From Oscillospiraceae bacterium (GTDB lineage: Bacteria; Bacillota; Clostridia; Oscillospirales; Ruminococcaceae), in assembly GCA_017472735.1 (NCBI GenBank), contig JAFUOD010000013.1, positions 1-64,000 of the forward strand: 64,000 nucleotides of DNA, read 5' to 3'. Positions 10,938 through 19,341 of the stretch are shown piece by piece; the stretch's first letter is position 1; every line of letters begins with the position of its first letter. Made by a program: the position numbers and the translations under genes. The notes under the pieces were generated by a model. That model had not been told where the DNA came from, ran no database searches, and saw nothing but the letters and a program-made list of their open reading frames with translations.

Positions 10938-11624
10938 ATGAGAGAAAGTATTTTAACAATACCGATTAATGAGATTTTTGAGCCTAAGTGCGGCTGCCCT
11001 ATTTGCATGATGCGCGACACGCTTGAAAGCCACACGACCGAATACATTATGGGTGCCGCAATGATGGAGCCCGACGTGCGGATTGATACCAACCGACTCG
11101 GTTTTTGCCACACTCACTATCAGCAGCTTTTAAAGCAGAAAAACCGCCTTTCGTTGGCGCTAATGCTTCAGACGAGACTTGAGACCGTTAAAAAAGAAGT
11201 TTTCTCGAAAAAGAGTTTTTTAGAGCCAAAGGCAAAAAAGCTTAAGGCACTTGCCGGCCACAACTCGACCTGCTTTGTATGCTCGAAGGTTGATTGGGCA
11301 ATGGAGCGACTGATGGTGACCGTTTTTGATATGTATGAAAATTCGGAGGATTTCAGACGTTTGTTTGCCGAGCAGGAGTATATCTGCATGCCTCATTGCG
11401 AAATGCTGACTGAGCTTGCAAAGACAAAGCTGAGCAAAAAGTATGCTTCTGACTTTATTGACACCTGCACCGATCTTGCGGGAAAACAGATCGCTATGCT
11501 GTATGATGACGTTTCGCACTTCTGCTCGATGTTTGATTACAGAAACAATTCGCCCGATGCCGACTGGGGAAATTCGCGCGATTCGATCGAACGTGCCATA
11601 AAGTTCCTTACTTCCCGAGAATAA
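10938..11624 (+). CDS. Cys-rich protein, DUF6062-like
   Basis: A 228-residue soluble protein with two cysteine/histidine modules. The first has CGCPIC near the N-terminus and FCHTHYQQLL at about residue 57; the second has CFVCSKVDWAMERL at about 112 and CMPHCEML at about 155. The repeated CxxC...CxxH pattern suggests two metal sites. The order of motifs (IPINEIFEPKCGCPICMMRDTLE, then MMEPDVRIDTNRLGFC) matches what I recall of DUF6062, an uncharacterised clostridial family. AGGAGG lies seven bases before the ATG. It is divergent from ogg. Confidence 0.75.
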   Translation: MRESILTIPINEIFEPKCGCPICMMRDTLESHTTEYIMGAAMMEPDVRIDTNRLGFCHTHYQQLLKQKNRLSLALMLQTRLETVKKEVFSKKSFLEPKAKKLKALAGHNSTCFVCSKVDWAMERLMVTVFDMYENSEDFRRLFAEQEYICMPHCEMLTELAKTKLSKKYASDFIDTCTDLAGKQIAMLYDDVSHFCSMFDYRNNSPDADWGNSRDSIERAIKFLTSRE

Positions 11625-12468: not shown

Positions 12469-13305
12469 ATGGACAAAAAACCGAACAAGAATTTTAAGAA
12501 TATTAAAGAAAATAAAGATAAAAAGCCTTATGAGCCTAAGAAGCAGGTGCCTTCTTCCTCTGCAGAGGAAGACACAGAAGGAATGTCGCTTATAATCGGC
12601 AGAAACCCTGTTATTGAAGCGCTTAAGGCGGACAAGCTTATTGACACGATTTTTATAAACCGTGAAGGCGGCGGCTCGCTCTCGCTTATTGTTAAAATGG
12701 CGAAGGAAAAAGAGATCGTTGTTAAAGAGGTCAGCGAGCAGAAGCTTTCAAACATGTCCAAGGGTGGAGCGCATCAGGGCGTAATTGCAATGGGCGCCTG
12801 TGCTGAATATGTTGAGATCGAGGACATTTTGGCTCTTGCCAAAGAGCGAAACGAGGATCCGTTTGTTATTATTTGCGACGAGATCGAGGACCCTCACAAC
12901 CTTGGTGCGATTATAAGAACAGCCGAAAGTGCGGGCGCACACGGAATTATAATTCCTAAAAGAAGAAGCGCTTCGCTTAACCACACCGTTTTTAAAACCT
13001 CGGCAGGTGCGGCAAGCTGGCTGCCTGTTGCAAGGGTTCCCAACATTCCCGCGGCAATTGACGAGCTTAAAAAGAACGGCATTTGGATCTATGGCACCGA
13101 CGCCTCGGGAGAGGATTACACAAAAGCTAACCTTAAAGGCGCTATCGGACTGGTAATCGGATCGGAAGGGTTTGGAATGGGCAGGCTTGTTGCAAGCAAA
13201 TGCGACTTTATGCTTAAACTGCCGATGAAGGGCAAGATCACCTCGCTTAACGCATCGGTTGCGGCAGGAATTTTTATGTATGAAATTGTAAGGCAGCGCG
13301 GCTGA
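12469..13305 (+). CDS. rlmB: 23S rRNA (guanosine-2251-2'-O)-methyltransferase RlmB
   Basis: A SPOUT (TrmH-type) enzyme that methylates the ribose of a conserved guanosine in the 23S peptidyl-transferase loop using SAM. The 278-residue protein has a low-complexity Lys/Asn/Glu-rich N-terminal extension (1-42), a substrate-binding domain (IIGRNPVIEALKADKLIDTIFINRE), and the knotted catalytic domain. The latter carries the three motifs: DEIEDPHNLGAIIRTAESAGAHGIII, GLVIGSEGFGM and LPMKGKITSLNASVAAGIFMYE. The ATG is preceded by AAGGA. It has its own promoter and is followed after 51 bases by the pseudo-P-type ATPase gene. Confidence 0.93.
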   Translation: MDKKPNKNFKNIKENKDKKPYEPKKQVPSSSAEEDTEGMSLIIGRNPVIEALKADKLIDTIFINREGGGSLSLIVKMAKEKEIVVKEVSEQKLSNMSKGGAHQGVIAMGACAEYVEIEDILALAKERNEDPFVIICDEIEDPHNLGAIIRTAESAGAHGIIIPKRRSASLNHTVFKTSAGAASWLPVARVPNIPAAIDELKKNGIWIYGTDASGEDYTKANLKGAIGLVIGSEGFGMGRLVASKCDFMLKLPMKGKITSLNASVAAGIFMYEIVRQRG

Positions 13306-13356: not shown

Positions 13357-15915
13357 ATGGCTGACAAGAATTTATCTATAGACGATATTTTAAACGAATA
13401 TTCAGGCAAAGCTTCATCGTCGAGCAAAAACAGCGATTCGATTGATATCGACGAGCTTATCAACTCGGTTTCGGGCGGTGCAAGCACCGGTCAGAAAACC
13501 GAAATGATTGAAGATGTTTTGGAAATCGGCGACAACAGCTTTGTTTTTGACCCCGGAGACGTAAAGCAGGAAACAAGCGAGCTTGTTATTACTGCATCCG
13601 AGGAAGAGGGCAACGAGACACCCTTAGCGTTTACCTCGACAATTGAGGTGCCTTTGACCGACGAGGAATCGATGCCCGAGGATATACCCTCGCTGAGACA
13701 GGGTAAGAGAACAACGCAGGGCACACAGGCGATTGAAAAGGTGATGTCGTCAAACACGGACGGTACTAAACCCGAGGCTGAAGAAAAGACCGTTCACATT
13801 GACCCGCCCAAAAAGGAAAATACGGTAAGTGAAGAAGCAAAAGCCACTCGCTCGGGCATAAGACCGATGGCAGAAAACCCCTCGAACACGGCGATGCTTG
13901 AAGGGCTTAAAAAGCTTAAGCGAGAGAGAGGCACACCAAGGGCTACTGCGAAGATACCTCCTGTTAACAGAGCTTCGATTGATAACATCGACCTTGAAAT
14001 CGGGCAGAAGGTGATTCCCAACACCGAAATCGGGTTGGATGAAAACGCCACCGAAGAAGAGAGACTTGCTTATCTTAACGCTAAACGCCGCGAAAGAGTT
14101 AAACAGTTTGTTATAAGCGGCGAGGAGGAAGAGACTCCCGACAAGAATGCTGTTGCAGACTTTGTTTCGTTTGAACAGGCAAGCGACATGGCAAAAAGCA
14201 TAGCCTCGCTTAAGGGCAGCCTGATTGTTAGATTTTGCGTTTTGCTTATTGCAACGCTTGTAAGCGGTTACATAACCCTGGCAAACGACTTAAAGCTGCC
14301 TTTGGTTTCGTTCCTTTCGCGTGCTGAAAACTCGGCGACGGCATATTTATTTGTTAATGTTGTTTTGGGACTTGCCGCCTGTGCGGTTTCGTTGACAGTT
14401 TTAACAGTAGGCCTTAAAAAGCTTTTGACAATGAAAGCCGACAGCGACAGCTTGGCAACCGTATCGGTTTTGTTTACAATGGTAACTGGCATTGCCCTTT
14501 TGACCGATTCGGAGCTTGTGCAGATGCAGCACGTTCAGCTTTACATTTGCATTTCGATTTTAGGGCTTTTAATTAACACGATAGGCAAGCTTTTAATTGT
14601 TACGCGAACAGAGCGAAACTTTAGATACGTTTCGGGCGGATATTCAAAATATGCCGCCATGCACATTGACGACGAAGAAATTGCGAGCAAGTTTACAAAG
14701 GGCGCACTCAGCGATTTCCCGTCGCTTTCGACCTCGAGAAAGACCGAATTTGTAAGCGACTTTATTAAAAACAGCTACTCGGCAGATTTGACCGACAGCT
14801 TCTGTAAATTCTTTGTGCCGGTTATTACTGTTATTTCGGTTATTATCGGCGTGATCGCGGCATTTGTTCACCCCGAGACGATCGTTGACACCACCGACAG
14901 AGTGTTTTATGCAATGAGCTGTGCCTGCGGCACGATTTCGATGTGCTCGGCTGTGGGTATGATGCTTGTTACAAACATTCCTTTGGCTAAGGCTTCTAAG
15001 AAGTATTTGCAGTCATCGGCTGTAATGCTTGGATATTCGGCAGTTGACAAATTCGCAGATACCAACTCGGTGCTTATTGATGCTGTTGACCTCTTCCCCG
15101 ACGGTATGGTTGATATTGTTAATATTAAGCCTGCAAAGAAAACACCTTTAGAGGAAGGCATTTTATATGCGGCATCGCTTTGCTGCCAAACTGAAAGCAT
15201 TCTGCGCTCGGCATTTTATAAGATGATAAAGGGCAAGACCGAAATGCTTTACCCTGTTGAAAGCTATATTTATGAGGACGGGCTGGGACTTTCGGGTTGG
15301 ATTCAGAACAAGCGAGTTTTGTTCGGCAACCGTGCTTTAATGGAGAGCCATTCGATTGAGGGCCTGCCCTCGTTAGAAAAAGAAGAACAGTATAAAAAGG
15401 AAGCTTCTAACCTTTTGTACTTATCAATAGGCGGTACTCTTGCAATGCTGTTTATCGTTCAGATAAGGGCATCGGTTTCAATTAAACGTGCGCTTAAGGA
15501 CCTTGAAAAGCAGAATATTACTGTTATTCTTCGCTCGGTCGATTCCTCGCTTAGCATTACAAGACTTGCTGAAATGTTTGAAGTCAGCCCCAACATGTTT
15601 AAGCTTTTGCCGTTCAGATTCCATGCCGATTATGACGCACAGACATCTTACATTTCAAAGATGAGCTCGCCCATGATCTATTCCGGTCACTTCTCATCGC
15701 TGGCAATGCTTCTTTCAGGAGCTAAAAAGCTGTTGAAATCGGCAACCGTAGGTGTTGCAATTCAAACTTTGTCGGCGCTTTTGGGTGTTGTTTTGGCAGT
15801 GGTTATGGTGCTTGTGGGCACGTTCTCGGGTATTTTAACAGGAACAGTTGTGCTTGTTTACAACATTTTGTTTGCTGTTATTACAGCGATCACACAGTCG
15901 GTTGCAAAAACCTGA
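13357..15915 (+). CDS. P-type ATPase-like membrane protein with lost catalytic motifs
   Basis: This 852-residue protein has a long acidic, probably disordered N-terminus (1-280) and then follows heavy-metal P-type ATPases. There are four membrane helices (about 285-420), an A-domain-like loop, a helix pair where the CPC motif should be (here MSCACGTISM), and KASKKYLQSSAVMLGYSAVDKFADTN, which lines up with the stalk before DKTGT. An N-domain relic, RVLFGNRALMESHSIEGLPS (Gly at 657), follows, and two helices close the protein. The catalytic motifs are gone: DKTGT is DTNSV (Asp 568 kept), TGD is SVD (727-729), and GDGINDAP is replaced by SGHFSSLAM. It should not hydrolyse ATP by the usual route. 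A role as membrane scaffold or sensor is a guess. AAGGAAGG precedes the ATG; a terminator follows. Confidence 0.8.
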   Translation: MADKNLSIDDILNEYSGKASSSSKNSDSIDIDELINSVSGGASTGQKTEMIEDVLEIGDNSFVFDPGDVKQETSELVITASEEEGNETPLAFTSTIEVPLTDEESMPEDIPSLRQGKRTTQGTQAIEKVMSSNTDGTKPEAEEKTVHIDPPKKENTVSEEAKATRSGIRPMAENPSNTAMLEGLKKLKRERGTPRATAKIPPVNRASIDNIDLEIGQKVIPNTEIGLDENATEEERLAYLNAKRRERVKQFVISGEEEETPDKNAVADFVSFEQASDMAKSIASLKGSLIVRFCVLLIATLVSGYITLANDLKLPLVSFLSRAENSATAYLFVNVVLGLAACAVSLTVLTVGLKKLLTMKADSDSLATVSVLFTMVTGIALLTDSELVQMQHVQLYICISILGLLINTIGKLLIVTRTERNFRYVSGGYSKYAAMHIDDEEIASKFTKGALSDFPSLSTSRKTEFVSDFIKNSYSADLTDSFCKFFVPVITVISVIIGVIAAFVHPETIVDTTDRVFYAMSCACGTISMCSAVGMMLVTNIPLAKASKKYLQSSAVMLGYSAVDKFADTNSVLIDAVDLFPDGMVDIVNIKPAKKTPLEEGILYAASLCCQTESILRSAFYKMIKGKTEMLYPVESYIYEDGLGLSGWIQNKRVLFGNRALMESHSIEGLPSLEKEEQYKKEASNLLYLSIGGTLAMLFIVQIRASVSIKRALKDLEKQNITVILRSVDSSLSITRLAEMFEVSPNMFKLLPFRFHADYDAQTSYISKMSSPMIYSGHFSSLAMLLSGAKKLLKSATVGVAIQTLSALLGVVLAVVMVLVGTFSGILTGTVVLVYNILFAVITAITQSVAKT

Positions 15916-15929
15916 TATGATTTAAAACA

Positions 15930-15961
15930 AAGCGGTGAACGGTTGTGTTCGCCGCTTTTTT
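15930..15961 (+). terminator. Intrinsic terminator after the pseudo-P-type ATPase gene
   Basis: AAGCGGTGAAC pairs with GTTCGCCGCTT (one G-U pair), followed by TTTTTTGTT. Confidence 0.85.
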
Positions 15962-17187: not shown

Positions 17188-17222
17188 TTAATGTGCGACT
17201 AAAGCGAAAGGAAGTGACCGGC

Positions 17223-17696
17223 TTGGCAGACAACAAGAAAAACGCAAACAGAATAATTTCGGAAAACCGCCAGGCAAGGCACGATTATTTTGTTTTAGAA
17301 GCTTTGGAAACAGGCATTGAGCTTGTTGGCACCGAGGTCAAGTCGATGCGTGTGAACGGTGCTAATTTAAAAGACAGTTGGTGTGAAATTTCCGAGGGTG
17401 AGCTGTTTGTTAACGGTATGCACGTAAGCCCTTATGAAAAGGGAAACATTTTTAACCGCGACCCAAGACGTGTAAGACGGCTTTTAGCACATAAGTCCGA
17501 AATAAGACGGCTTTATGATAAAGTAAGGCAGGAGGGCTTAACGCTTATCCCTCTAAAGCTTTATTTCAAGGGCTCGAGGGTAAAGGTAGAGGTTGGGCTT
17601 TGCAAGGGCAAAAAGCTTTATGACAAGCGTGACGACATGGCTAAGCGCCAGTCTCAGCGTGACATTGAAAGAGCCTTGAAAGAGAGGAATCAGTAA
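17223..17696 (+). CDS. smpB: SsrA-binding protein SmpB
   Basis: SmpB binds tmRNA and carries it into stalled ribosomes for trans-translation. The product is 157 residues, the normal size. Family motifs are visible: NRQARHDYFVLEALETGIELVGTEVKSMRVNGANLKDSW, the RRLLAHKSEI segment, LIPLKLYFKG, and the basic C-terminal tail KKLYDKRDDMAKRQSQRDIERALK that contacts the decoding centre. The TTG at 17223 was chosen because AAGGAAGTG lies just before it; GTG codons at 17193 and 17214 are in frame but overlap the site. The tmRNA gene itself is 1.3 kb downstream on the same strand. The stop codon abuts the ATG of the nitroreductase gene. Confidence 0.95.
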   Translation: MADNKKNANRIISENRQARHDYFVLEALETGIELVGTEVKSMRVNGANLKDSWCEISEGELFVNGMHVSPYEKGNIFNRDPRRVRRLLAHKSEIRRLYDKVRQEGLTLIPLKLYFKGSRVKVEVGLCKGKKLYDKRDDMAKRQSQRDIERALKERNQ

Positions 17697-18989: not shown

Positions 18990-19341
18990 GGGGGCGTAAA
19001 GGTTTCGACGGGGATCTTGAGGACGAATAAGCGAGTAGAGGAAGGCGTCAATCTCTTTAAACGGCGCAACTTTAAATTTTAAACGACAACAATAGTTTAG
19101 AATTGGCTGCTGCTTAATAGCGGCCCGTCCTGCCGATGAGGACCACGGCATCGGTTAGGGCGTCGACGAGTGGTGAACGTTGCGCGCTGATGCCCGTAAG
19201 CGCGCAATGAATTACGGGATACTGAGTGATTAAGTCTGCTTACCGACGTGAGCACGAGGGAATGTAAAAGATAAGCTACACTCGTAGAAAGTTTTTCTAA
19301 GGGGTTTTCGGACACGGGTTCAATTCCCGTCGCCTCCACCA
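18990..19341 (+). ncRNA. ssrA: tmRNA (transfer-messenger RNA)
   Basis: tmRNA rescues stalled ribosomes with SmpB. The 352-nt gene starts GGGGGCG, which pairs with CGCCTCC before the terminal ACCA to make the acceptor stem. The T-arm GGTTCAATTCC is present near the 3' end, as is the 5' GTAAAGGTTTCGACGGGGATC segment. The tag reading frame ends NDNNSLELAAA with a double stop TAA TAG (19115-19120). Reading back in frame there is a TAA at 19073-19075, so the resume codon must lie after it; no Ala codon is found there, and AAC at 19082 is the likeliest start. The CCA is encoded. Confidence 0.96.

Follow-up and report, generated by a model that had tools for sequence, protein, structure and literature searches.

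The first 64,000 nucleotides of contig JAFUOD010000013.1 (forward strand, assembly GCA_017472735.1, Oscillospiraceae bacterium), here called the window, contain directly behind rlmB a gene for a membrane protein that is related to the copper pump CopA and in which the catalytic motifs of such pumps are lost. The protein, below termed the pseudo-pump, is likely to be a pseudo-P-type ATPase, in which a P1B (CopA-like) pump has been turned into a membrane-anchored, non-transporting scaffold or sensor. The conversion probably dates back to the ancestor of the bacterial order, and comparisons of sequences place the altered protein in most sampled genomes of this order. P-type ATPases are defined by a phospho-aspartate, and the five-letter motif DKTGT that surrounds this residue in pumps is found at its site in none of the 109 family members that were compared. 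The features of the gene are as follows.

13357..15915, + strand: pseudo-P1B-ATPase gene, 852 amino acids, open frame intact
13372..13401, + strand: motif LSIDDILNEY, residues 6-15, a putative docking motif (pattern count and logo)
13402..14139, + strand: remaining acidic N-terminal arm, residues 16-261 (composition and alignment)
14227..14601, + strand: helices MA, MB, M1, and M2, residues 291-415 (family-average hydrophobicity and alignment to CopA)
14605..14805, + strand: A-domain remnant without TGES, residues 417-483, about half the CopA length
14812..14970, + strand: helices M3 and M4, residues 486-538 (hydrophobicity)
14947..14955, + strand: CPC position, here Ser531-Ala532-Val533 (3rfu and profile-profile alignments)
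15079..15093, + strand: DKTGT position, here D575-A-V-D-L (3rfu and profile-profile alignments)
15091..15105, + strand: family-specific LFPxG signature, residues 579-583 (F580 in 97/109, P581 in 94/108)
15133..15462, + strand: N domain, residues 593-702, the most conserved region of the family
15535..15543, + strand: TGD relic S727-V728-D729 (alignment; Asp729 retained in 107/109)
15757..15888, + strand: helices M5 and M6, residues 801-844 (hydrophobicity)

Kinship to CopA and fate of the catalytic motifs

When searched against its own genome, the 852-residue protein matches only itself. A Pfam scan gave nothing up to an E-value of 1, and the NCBIfam models PRK10671 (45.6 of 1316 bits) and TIGR01525 (41 of 346.25 bits) gave partial matches far under their cut-offs. 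The top solved relative is the copper efflux ATPase PDB 3rfu, which is matched by residues 460-742 at E 6.7e-15, and the match rises to E 1.2e-36 using a profile of 100 relatives. A profile-profile alignment (hhalign) to 22 CopA-like proteins, all of which have DKTGT, extends over 538 columns from MA into M6 (probability 100.0, E 4e-39). Because of the 3rfu matches and this alignment, the sequence similarity to the P1B ATPases is judged not to be a matter of chance, and a relation to the heavy-metal P-type ATPases, proposed in a first-pass annotation made from the letters of the window, is supported. Homology of the core points to descent from the P1B group.

The 109 members come from the GTDB family and order of the window's genome, and 100 of them make up the alignment used below. 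Three duplicate loci (L069, L070, L077), a copy with a split frame (L080), and two two-base fillers (L049, L050) were dropped before counting. The split copy (L080:4164-6560, genome G218) is interrupted by one in-frame TGA, which might be a sequencing error, a broken copy, or a case of recoding.

At the phosphorylation site, the window copy retains Asp575 and has lost KTGT. None of the five letters of DKTGT is matched at this site in 39 of the members, one is matched in 66 and two in four, so that two of five is the best agreement found. The aspartate itself is retained in 62 members and missing in 47, and the string DKTG, which occurs in four member proteins, is never found at the phosphorylation site. 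Where KTGT was, the family has the LFPxG signature, and the whole pattern [LIV][FY]PxG is found in 72/109. Neither CPC nor (C/S/T)PC, the mark of P1B-1 copper pumps, is present at the M4 site in any member. The first-pass annotation had noted both of these losses at other positions, reading DKTGT as DTNSV (568-572) and CPC as CACG (522-525), and these two assignments have to be given up in favor of the aligned sites listed above. Its other readings agree with the alignments: TGD has become SVD, GDGINDAP is gone (GDGxND is found nowhere in the 109 members, and the P-domain hinge region that should carry GDGxNDxP is shortened), and Gly657 is kept in what remains of the N domain. The part of the A domain that should carry TGE(S) is also gone; the bare string TGE, wherever placed, is found in 13 of 40 proteins from the order.

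When it comes to the N domain, the histidine of SEHP, whose position was taken from the profile-profile alignment, is absent from all 109 members, while the first glycine of GxG is found in 43 and Asn658, of the GN pair, in 56. These are residues that we take to be part of the ATP site. The second glycine of GxG (Gly644) and the glycine of GN (Gly657) are invariant (109/109), and these are the sole invariant columns of the 100-row alignment. As judged from the alignments, none of the tested catalytic features of a P-type pump is present in the pseudo-pump.

Family-average hydrophobicity displays eight hydrophobic segments at the positions expected for a P1B pump, and the A and P domains between them are partial. 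With domain borders drawn by hand, the A domain comprises about 67 residues vs. about 126 in CopA, and the second half of the P domain about 82 vs. about 124. The length of the core is nearly constant (535-622 amino acids in the 109 members). The first-pass annotation had described the fold as intact; the shortened A and P domains and the loss of TGES instead predict a reduced one.

Within the pseudo-pump alignment the N domain is the most conserved region (1.92 bits, against a mean of 1.48), followed here by the strand that formerly carried DKTGT (1.83 bits), and the helix regions have the lowest values (1.28-1.32 bits). In the 22 CopA proteins it is the N domain that is least conserved (2.66 bits, mean 3.00). 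As the two alignments are unequal in depth (100 and 22 rows) and in divergence, only the ranking within each of them is meaningful. The constraint thus seems to be inverted relative to CopA, as if the N domain had taken over the function once carried by the P and A domains and the membrane. One further conserved element, N-L-P-L, is found on the C-terminal side of M4, where Pro542 is kept in 101/109.

The core is preceded by an extension of about 261 residues in the window protein. It is acidic (53 D+E vs. 31 K+R), as annotated earlier, and somewhat shorter than the 280 residues first given. Over the 109 members its length varies from 6 to 874 amino acids, when the first start codon after a stop is taken as the beginning, and the arm is probably disordered. 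The pattern [DE][DE][IVLM][LIVM]x[ED][YFVILHW] is found within the first 120 residues of 70 members, and shuffled N-termini gave a mean of 0.94. The logo reads [FYL]-S-[VIL]-D-D-I-L-x-E-[YFVI], often with lysines after it; in 43 of the 70 the motif lies seven or eight residues past the nearest upstream Met, and eight of the 109 members have at least two copies within the first 500 residues. When the first 120 residues of 3886 open reading frames (ORFs) of at least 60 amino acids in the window and in the flanks of the other loci were scanned for the strict motif, the only matches outside the family genes were in L038, where the N-terminus is partly duplicated, and in the split L080 copy. Short acidic amphipathic motifs on variable arms typically serve for docking, and the motif of the pseudo-pump may be such an element.

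Distribution in the order and selection

A search with the window protein gave a match at E 0.001 in 195 of the 197 genomes from its GTDB family, and 30 of 31 genomes from its genus match. The two misses and three of the weakest matches in the family were rechecked with the profile; G016, G070, G125, and G194 are without a full-length copy, while G102 has one. In a sample of the order, the best profile match is at E 1.5e-60 or better in 184 of 197 genomes, and near full length among the matches listed. Among the relatives with a name are Ruminococcus bicirculans 80/3, whose GTDB order is Oscillospirales, and Candidatus Faeciplasma pullistercoris (NCBI family Oscillospiraceae).

All order members in a sample of the class (9/9) and in a sample of the phylum (2/2) match over the full length. 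The best match in the 236 non-order genomes of the class sample is at E 1.2e-41, and the matches listed span only about columns 208-507; in the 247 non-order genomes of the phylum sample the best is at E 4.9e-39, with no full-length one among the matches listed. Six non-order genomes are in both samples, and as at most five candidates were scored per genome, a highly divergent copy could escape. Of 23 non-order matches that were read, 23 have DKTGT, 22 TGES, 22 CPCA, and 21 GDGxNDxP, and because these motifs are kept in nearly all of them the outside matches resemble functional pumps. A quick tree was made of 61 rows, with 21 pseudo-pump rows taken from the 100 of the alignment. A branch with support 100 separates these 21 from all other rows; several branches of the tree are long, and it does not fix where the group attaches.

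The ratio of nonsynonymous to synonymous substitution rates (dN/dS) of the core is 0.025-0.070 in the 15 closest pairs among 30 same-genus sequences, and the core is under strong purifying selection. The window copy is in none of these pairs. It gave a finite dS in 8 of 29 pairs, with dN/dS 0.066-0.119, values that are rough since dS, at least 1.87 in all of them, was nearly saturated. In 11 of the 15 closest pairs dN/dS is higher for the N-terminal arm than for the core. L172 is a member of each of the other four pairs, and no more than 84 of its arm codons were available for comparison. The family thus displays what is expected of a pseudoenzyme family, namely motif loss in common, one origin in the quick tree, and purifying selection.

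Four reduced genomes of 0.7-0.9 Mb (G068, G160, G087, and G174; 88-97% complete) retain the gene, together with the N-terminal motif and with rlmB directly upstream. A profile search of these four genomes gave no second P1B-like protein, and the lone PF00122 protein of each is without CPC and groups with P2 ATPases in the tree. The motif loss throughout the order, the low dN/dS, and the retention in reduced genomes support the earlier suggestion of a conserved new role rather than decay. That the window copy might be a recent pseudogene with intact homologues had been named as the case that would speak against this; it fails because none of the full-length homologues seen in the sampled genomes has DKTGT or GDGxND intact.

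The rlmB locus

Two more features of the window delimit the proposed transcription unit.

12469..13305, + strand: rlmB, 23S rRNA G2251 2'-O-methyltransferase (TIGR00186, 244.5 bits, over cut-off)
15929..15958, + strand: terminator-like hairpin with 13 pairs and a T-run (consensus scan)

In the window, rlmB ends 51 bp upstream of the pseudo-pump gene. A tblastn search located it no more than 1.5 kb upstream, and on the same strand, in 75 of 76 flanked loci (the window excluded), the exception being L110, where the gene lies at the start of the stretch. Among 80 loci of a named collection it is on the same strand in 79, with a median gap of 24 bp, and the exception (L268) begins at the gene itself; the two sets may have genomes in common. 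The terminator scan gave no site between the two genes, although it gave 14 sites vs. 7.8 in shuffles. A clean operon setting behind rlmB was first suggested from the window; rlmB holds the same place in nearly all of these loci, and in the window rlmB and the pseudo-pump gene are likely to form a two-gene operon ending at the hairpin.

The downstream genes are more diverse. In 21 of 77 flanked loci the gene that follows belongs to a cluster of EF-G-like translational GTPases, and in 18 of these loci it lies within 350 bp; the assignment by family model (NF009381) was read for L038:8158-10290 and L043:8075-10153. At L094, L100, and L118 the downstream gene is era-like, with Pfam read for L100 alone, and metG-like, lon-like, and metabolic genes are found at other loci. 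A conserved downstream partner was rejected as these genes vary, except for the EF-G-like one. In the window, a putative smpB-like gene is found about 1.3 kb downstream (17193-17696), and a transfer-messenger RNA (tmRNA) gene about 3 kb downstream (18990-19341; Rfam RF00023, 167.2 bits). SmpB and tmRNA are a ribosome-rescue pair.

Some other observations concern the same locus. Upstream in the window, positions 10938-11624 encode a DUF6062 protein (PF19538, 253.8 bits), whose cluster is found in 7 of the 77 flanked loci. L038:1534-7809 appears to be a tandem with two rlmB-like stretches and two pseudo-pump N-termini, followed by one complete gene. A phage origin was rejected, as there is no PHROGs match at E 0.001 and the gene holds its place behind rlmB. 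A displacement of YacP/Rae1 by the pseudo-pump from the slot behind rlmB was considered; PF05991 matches 32 of 117 order genomes, giving no clean exclusion, and the idea was dropped. Of these 32 matches to PF05991 (YacP-type NYN), 31 lie inside open frames of more than 800 amino acids, which suggests a fusion.

In family f19 of the sampled genomes, a second degenerate P-type ATPase is found upstream of rlmB (L103:8068-10524, L107:7814-10024, and a fragment at L105:5269-5763). Like the pseudo-pump it is without DKTGT and GDGxND and adjoins rlmB. It differs in being P2/P3-like by its best matches, in having a recognizable A domain in L103, and in its separate place in the tree, where the branches are long. 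Apparently it represents an independent loss of catalysis beside the same locus.

Candidate roles and known counterparts

In the scaffold or sensor that the pseudo-pump has probably become, the eight helices would serve as the anchor. The N domain, with two invariant glycines at the old nucleotide pocket, would be the working part and bind a ligand or partner, while the variable arm would present the N-terminal DDILxE[YFVI] helix and dock a cytosolic partner.

Several observations weigh against this role. The gene is not strictly essential, as 13 of the 197 order genomes are without an ortholog (G200, G221, G223, G228, G257, G261, G282, G295, G318, G323, G344, G355, and G365), of which five reach a completeness of 90% or more. 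Four of the five (G257, G282, G295, and G323, thus not G223) were rechecked and have only partial CopA-like places, which in G257 and G323 belong to proteins with DKTGT and CPC. Of the 109 members, 39 do not have the N-terminal pattern in the form given above, and a DNA pattern for the motif gave 20 matches in 20 genomes vs. 2 for the reversed control, of which four are the pseudo-pump and 16 lie elsewhere. The gene downstream varies. Asp575 is present in 62 members, the window copy among them, so that phosphorylation by another route is conceivable, and all eight helices are retained, which a pure scaffold would not need. The support for a scaffold or sensor comes from sequence and gene order.

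None of the 16 other matches to the DNA pattern was, as judged by eye, at the N-terminus of a credible ORF. That the docking motif is common to other proteins was rejected, since neither this pattern nor the ORF scan gave a credible case. The four rechecked genomes might be natural losses, and could then be used to find what is lost together with the gene.

The retained aspartates could also mean that pumping or ATPase activity persists and that the catalytic residues are unusual or have migrated, with Asp575 or another Asp being phosphorylated. Asp729 is nearly universal and eight hydrophobic segments are kept, but KTGT, GDGxND, and CPC are lost, only about half of the A domain is left and it is without TGES, and even Asp575 is missing in 47 members, which makes this very improbable. 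The eight segments would suit a passive channel, a carrier, or a lipid scramblase built on the old membrane domain without an ATP cycle, and the N-L-P-L element with Pro542 past M4 might be part of it. However, the membrane regions are the least conserved ones, CPC is gone, and neither the N domain nor the N-terminal motif is given a role, so this is an unlikely function, if a better candidate than a surviving pump.

Dead paralogues are able to activate the corresponding enzyme, and the pseudo-pump could in the same way be a regulatory or assembly partner of a real copper P1B-ATPase. It is kin to that subfamily, and in the window's genome DKTGT is present in three proteins matching PF00122, of which one also has CPC. 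Such a role is nevertheless improbable, falling between the channel and the working pump, because the four reduced genomes retain the gene without any other P1B-like protein, their PF00122 proteins being of the P2 group; the gene also follows rlmB, not copper genes. Finally, the loss of every catalytic motif is what would be seen in a decaying copA pseudogene or an annotation artefact. This explanation is refuted for practical purposes by the presence in 184 of 197 order genomes and the low dN/dS, and the frames are open among the matches listed, apart from the split L080.

A scaffold or sensor remains the preferred reading. A more specific and rather doubtful proposal is that the dead copper pump has become a membrane-anchored factor in ribosome maturation or translation, with the N domain as a nucleotide sensor or partner-binding site and the arm as a dock for a ribosome-associated protein. 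It is gene order that suggests this, namely the nearly constant rlmB, the EF-G-like and era-like genes, and the smpB-like gene with tmRNA.

Compared with CopA, the pseudo-pump is alike in the 538 aligned columns, the eight hydrophobic segments, an N domain of similar length, and the retained second Gly of GxG, Gly of GN, and Asp of TGD. It differs in being without DKTGT, CPC, GDGxND, TGES, and the SEHP His, in its shortened A and P domains, in an N-terminal arm that is long and variable and carries a motif of its own, and in having its conservation centered on the N domain. The nearest precedent in the literature searched is the degenerate P4-ATPase domain of the apicomplexan guanylate cyclase beta, PfGC-beta (PMC6592433, PMC7858053). 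As described there, this domain is of P4 type, eukaryotic, and fused to a cyclase with a known output, while the pseudo-pump is bacterial, derived from P1B, and not fused to another protein. According to a section heading of PMC7858053, parasites need the ATPase Asp of PfGC-alpha to survive, and therefore only part of the apicomplexan cyclase family seems to be degenerate.

A survey of about 9.3 million UniProtKB sequences gives DKTGT in 99.77% of the identified P-type members and reports no new class; in 22 sequences the motif is altered by a single point mutation (PMC3896382). These variants are likewise without the exact motif, whereas the pseudo-pump is an order-wide family in which all the motifs are lost. 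Searches of the open-licence literature of PubMed Central (CC0, CC BY, and CC BY-SA) listed no bacterial pseudo-P-type ATPase family. As far as this literature goes, the pseudo-pump is a new free-standing and, by its sequence, non-catalytic branch of a known superfamily.

The label "cation-transporting P-type ATPase" would be mistaken for these proteins. A family with the membrane layout and none of the catalytic motifs would show that the P-type machine can be converted wholesale into something else. If the ribosome-factor proposal is true, the protein would connect the state of translation with the membrane in a whole order of gut bacteria. The family is a concrete and testable target in these bacteria, retained even at a genome size of 0.7 Mb.

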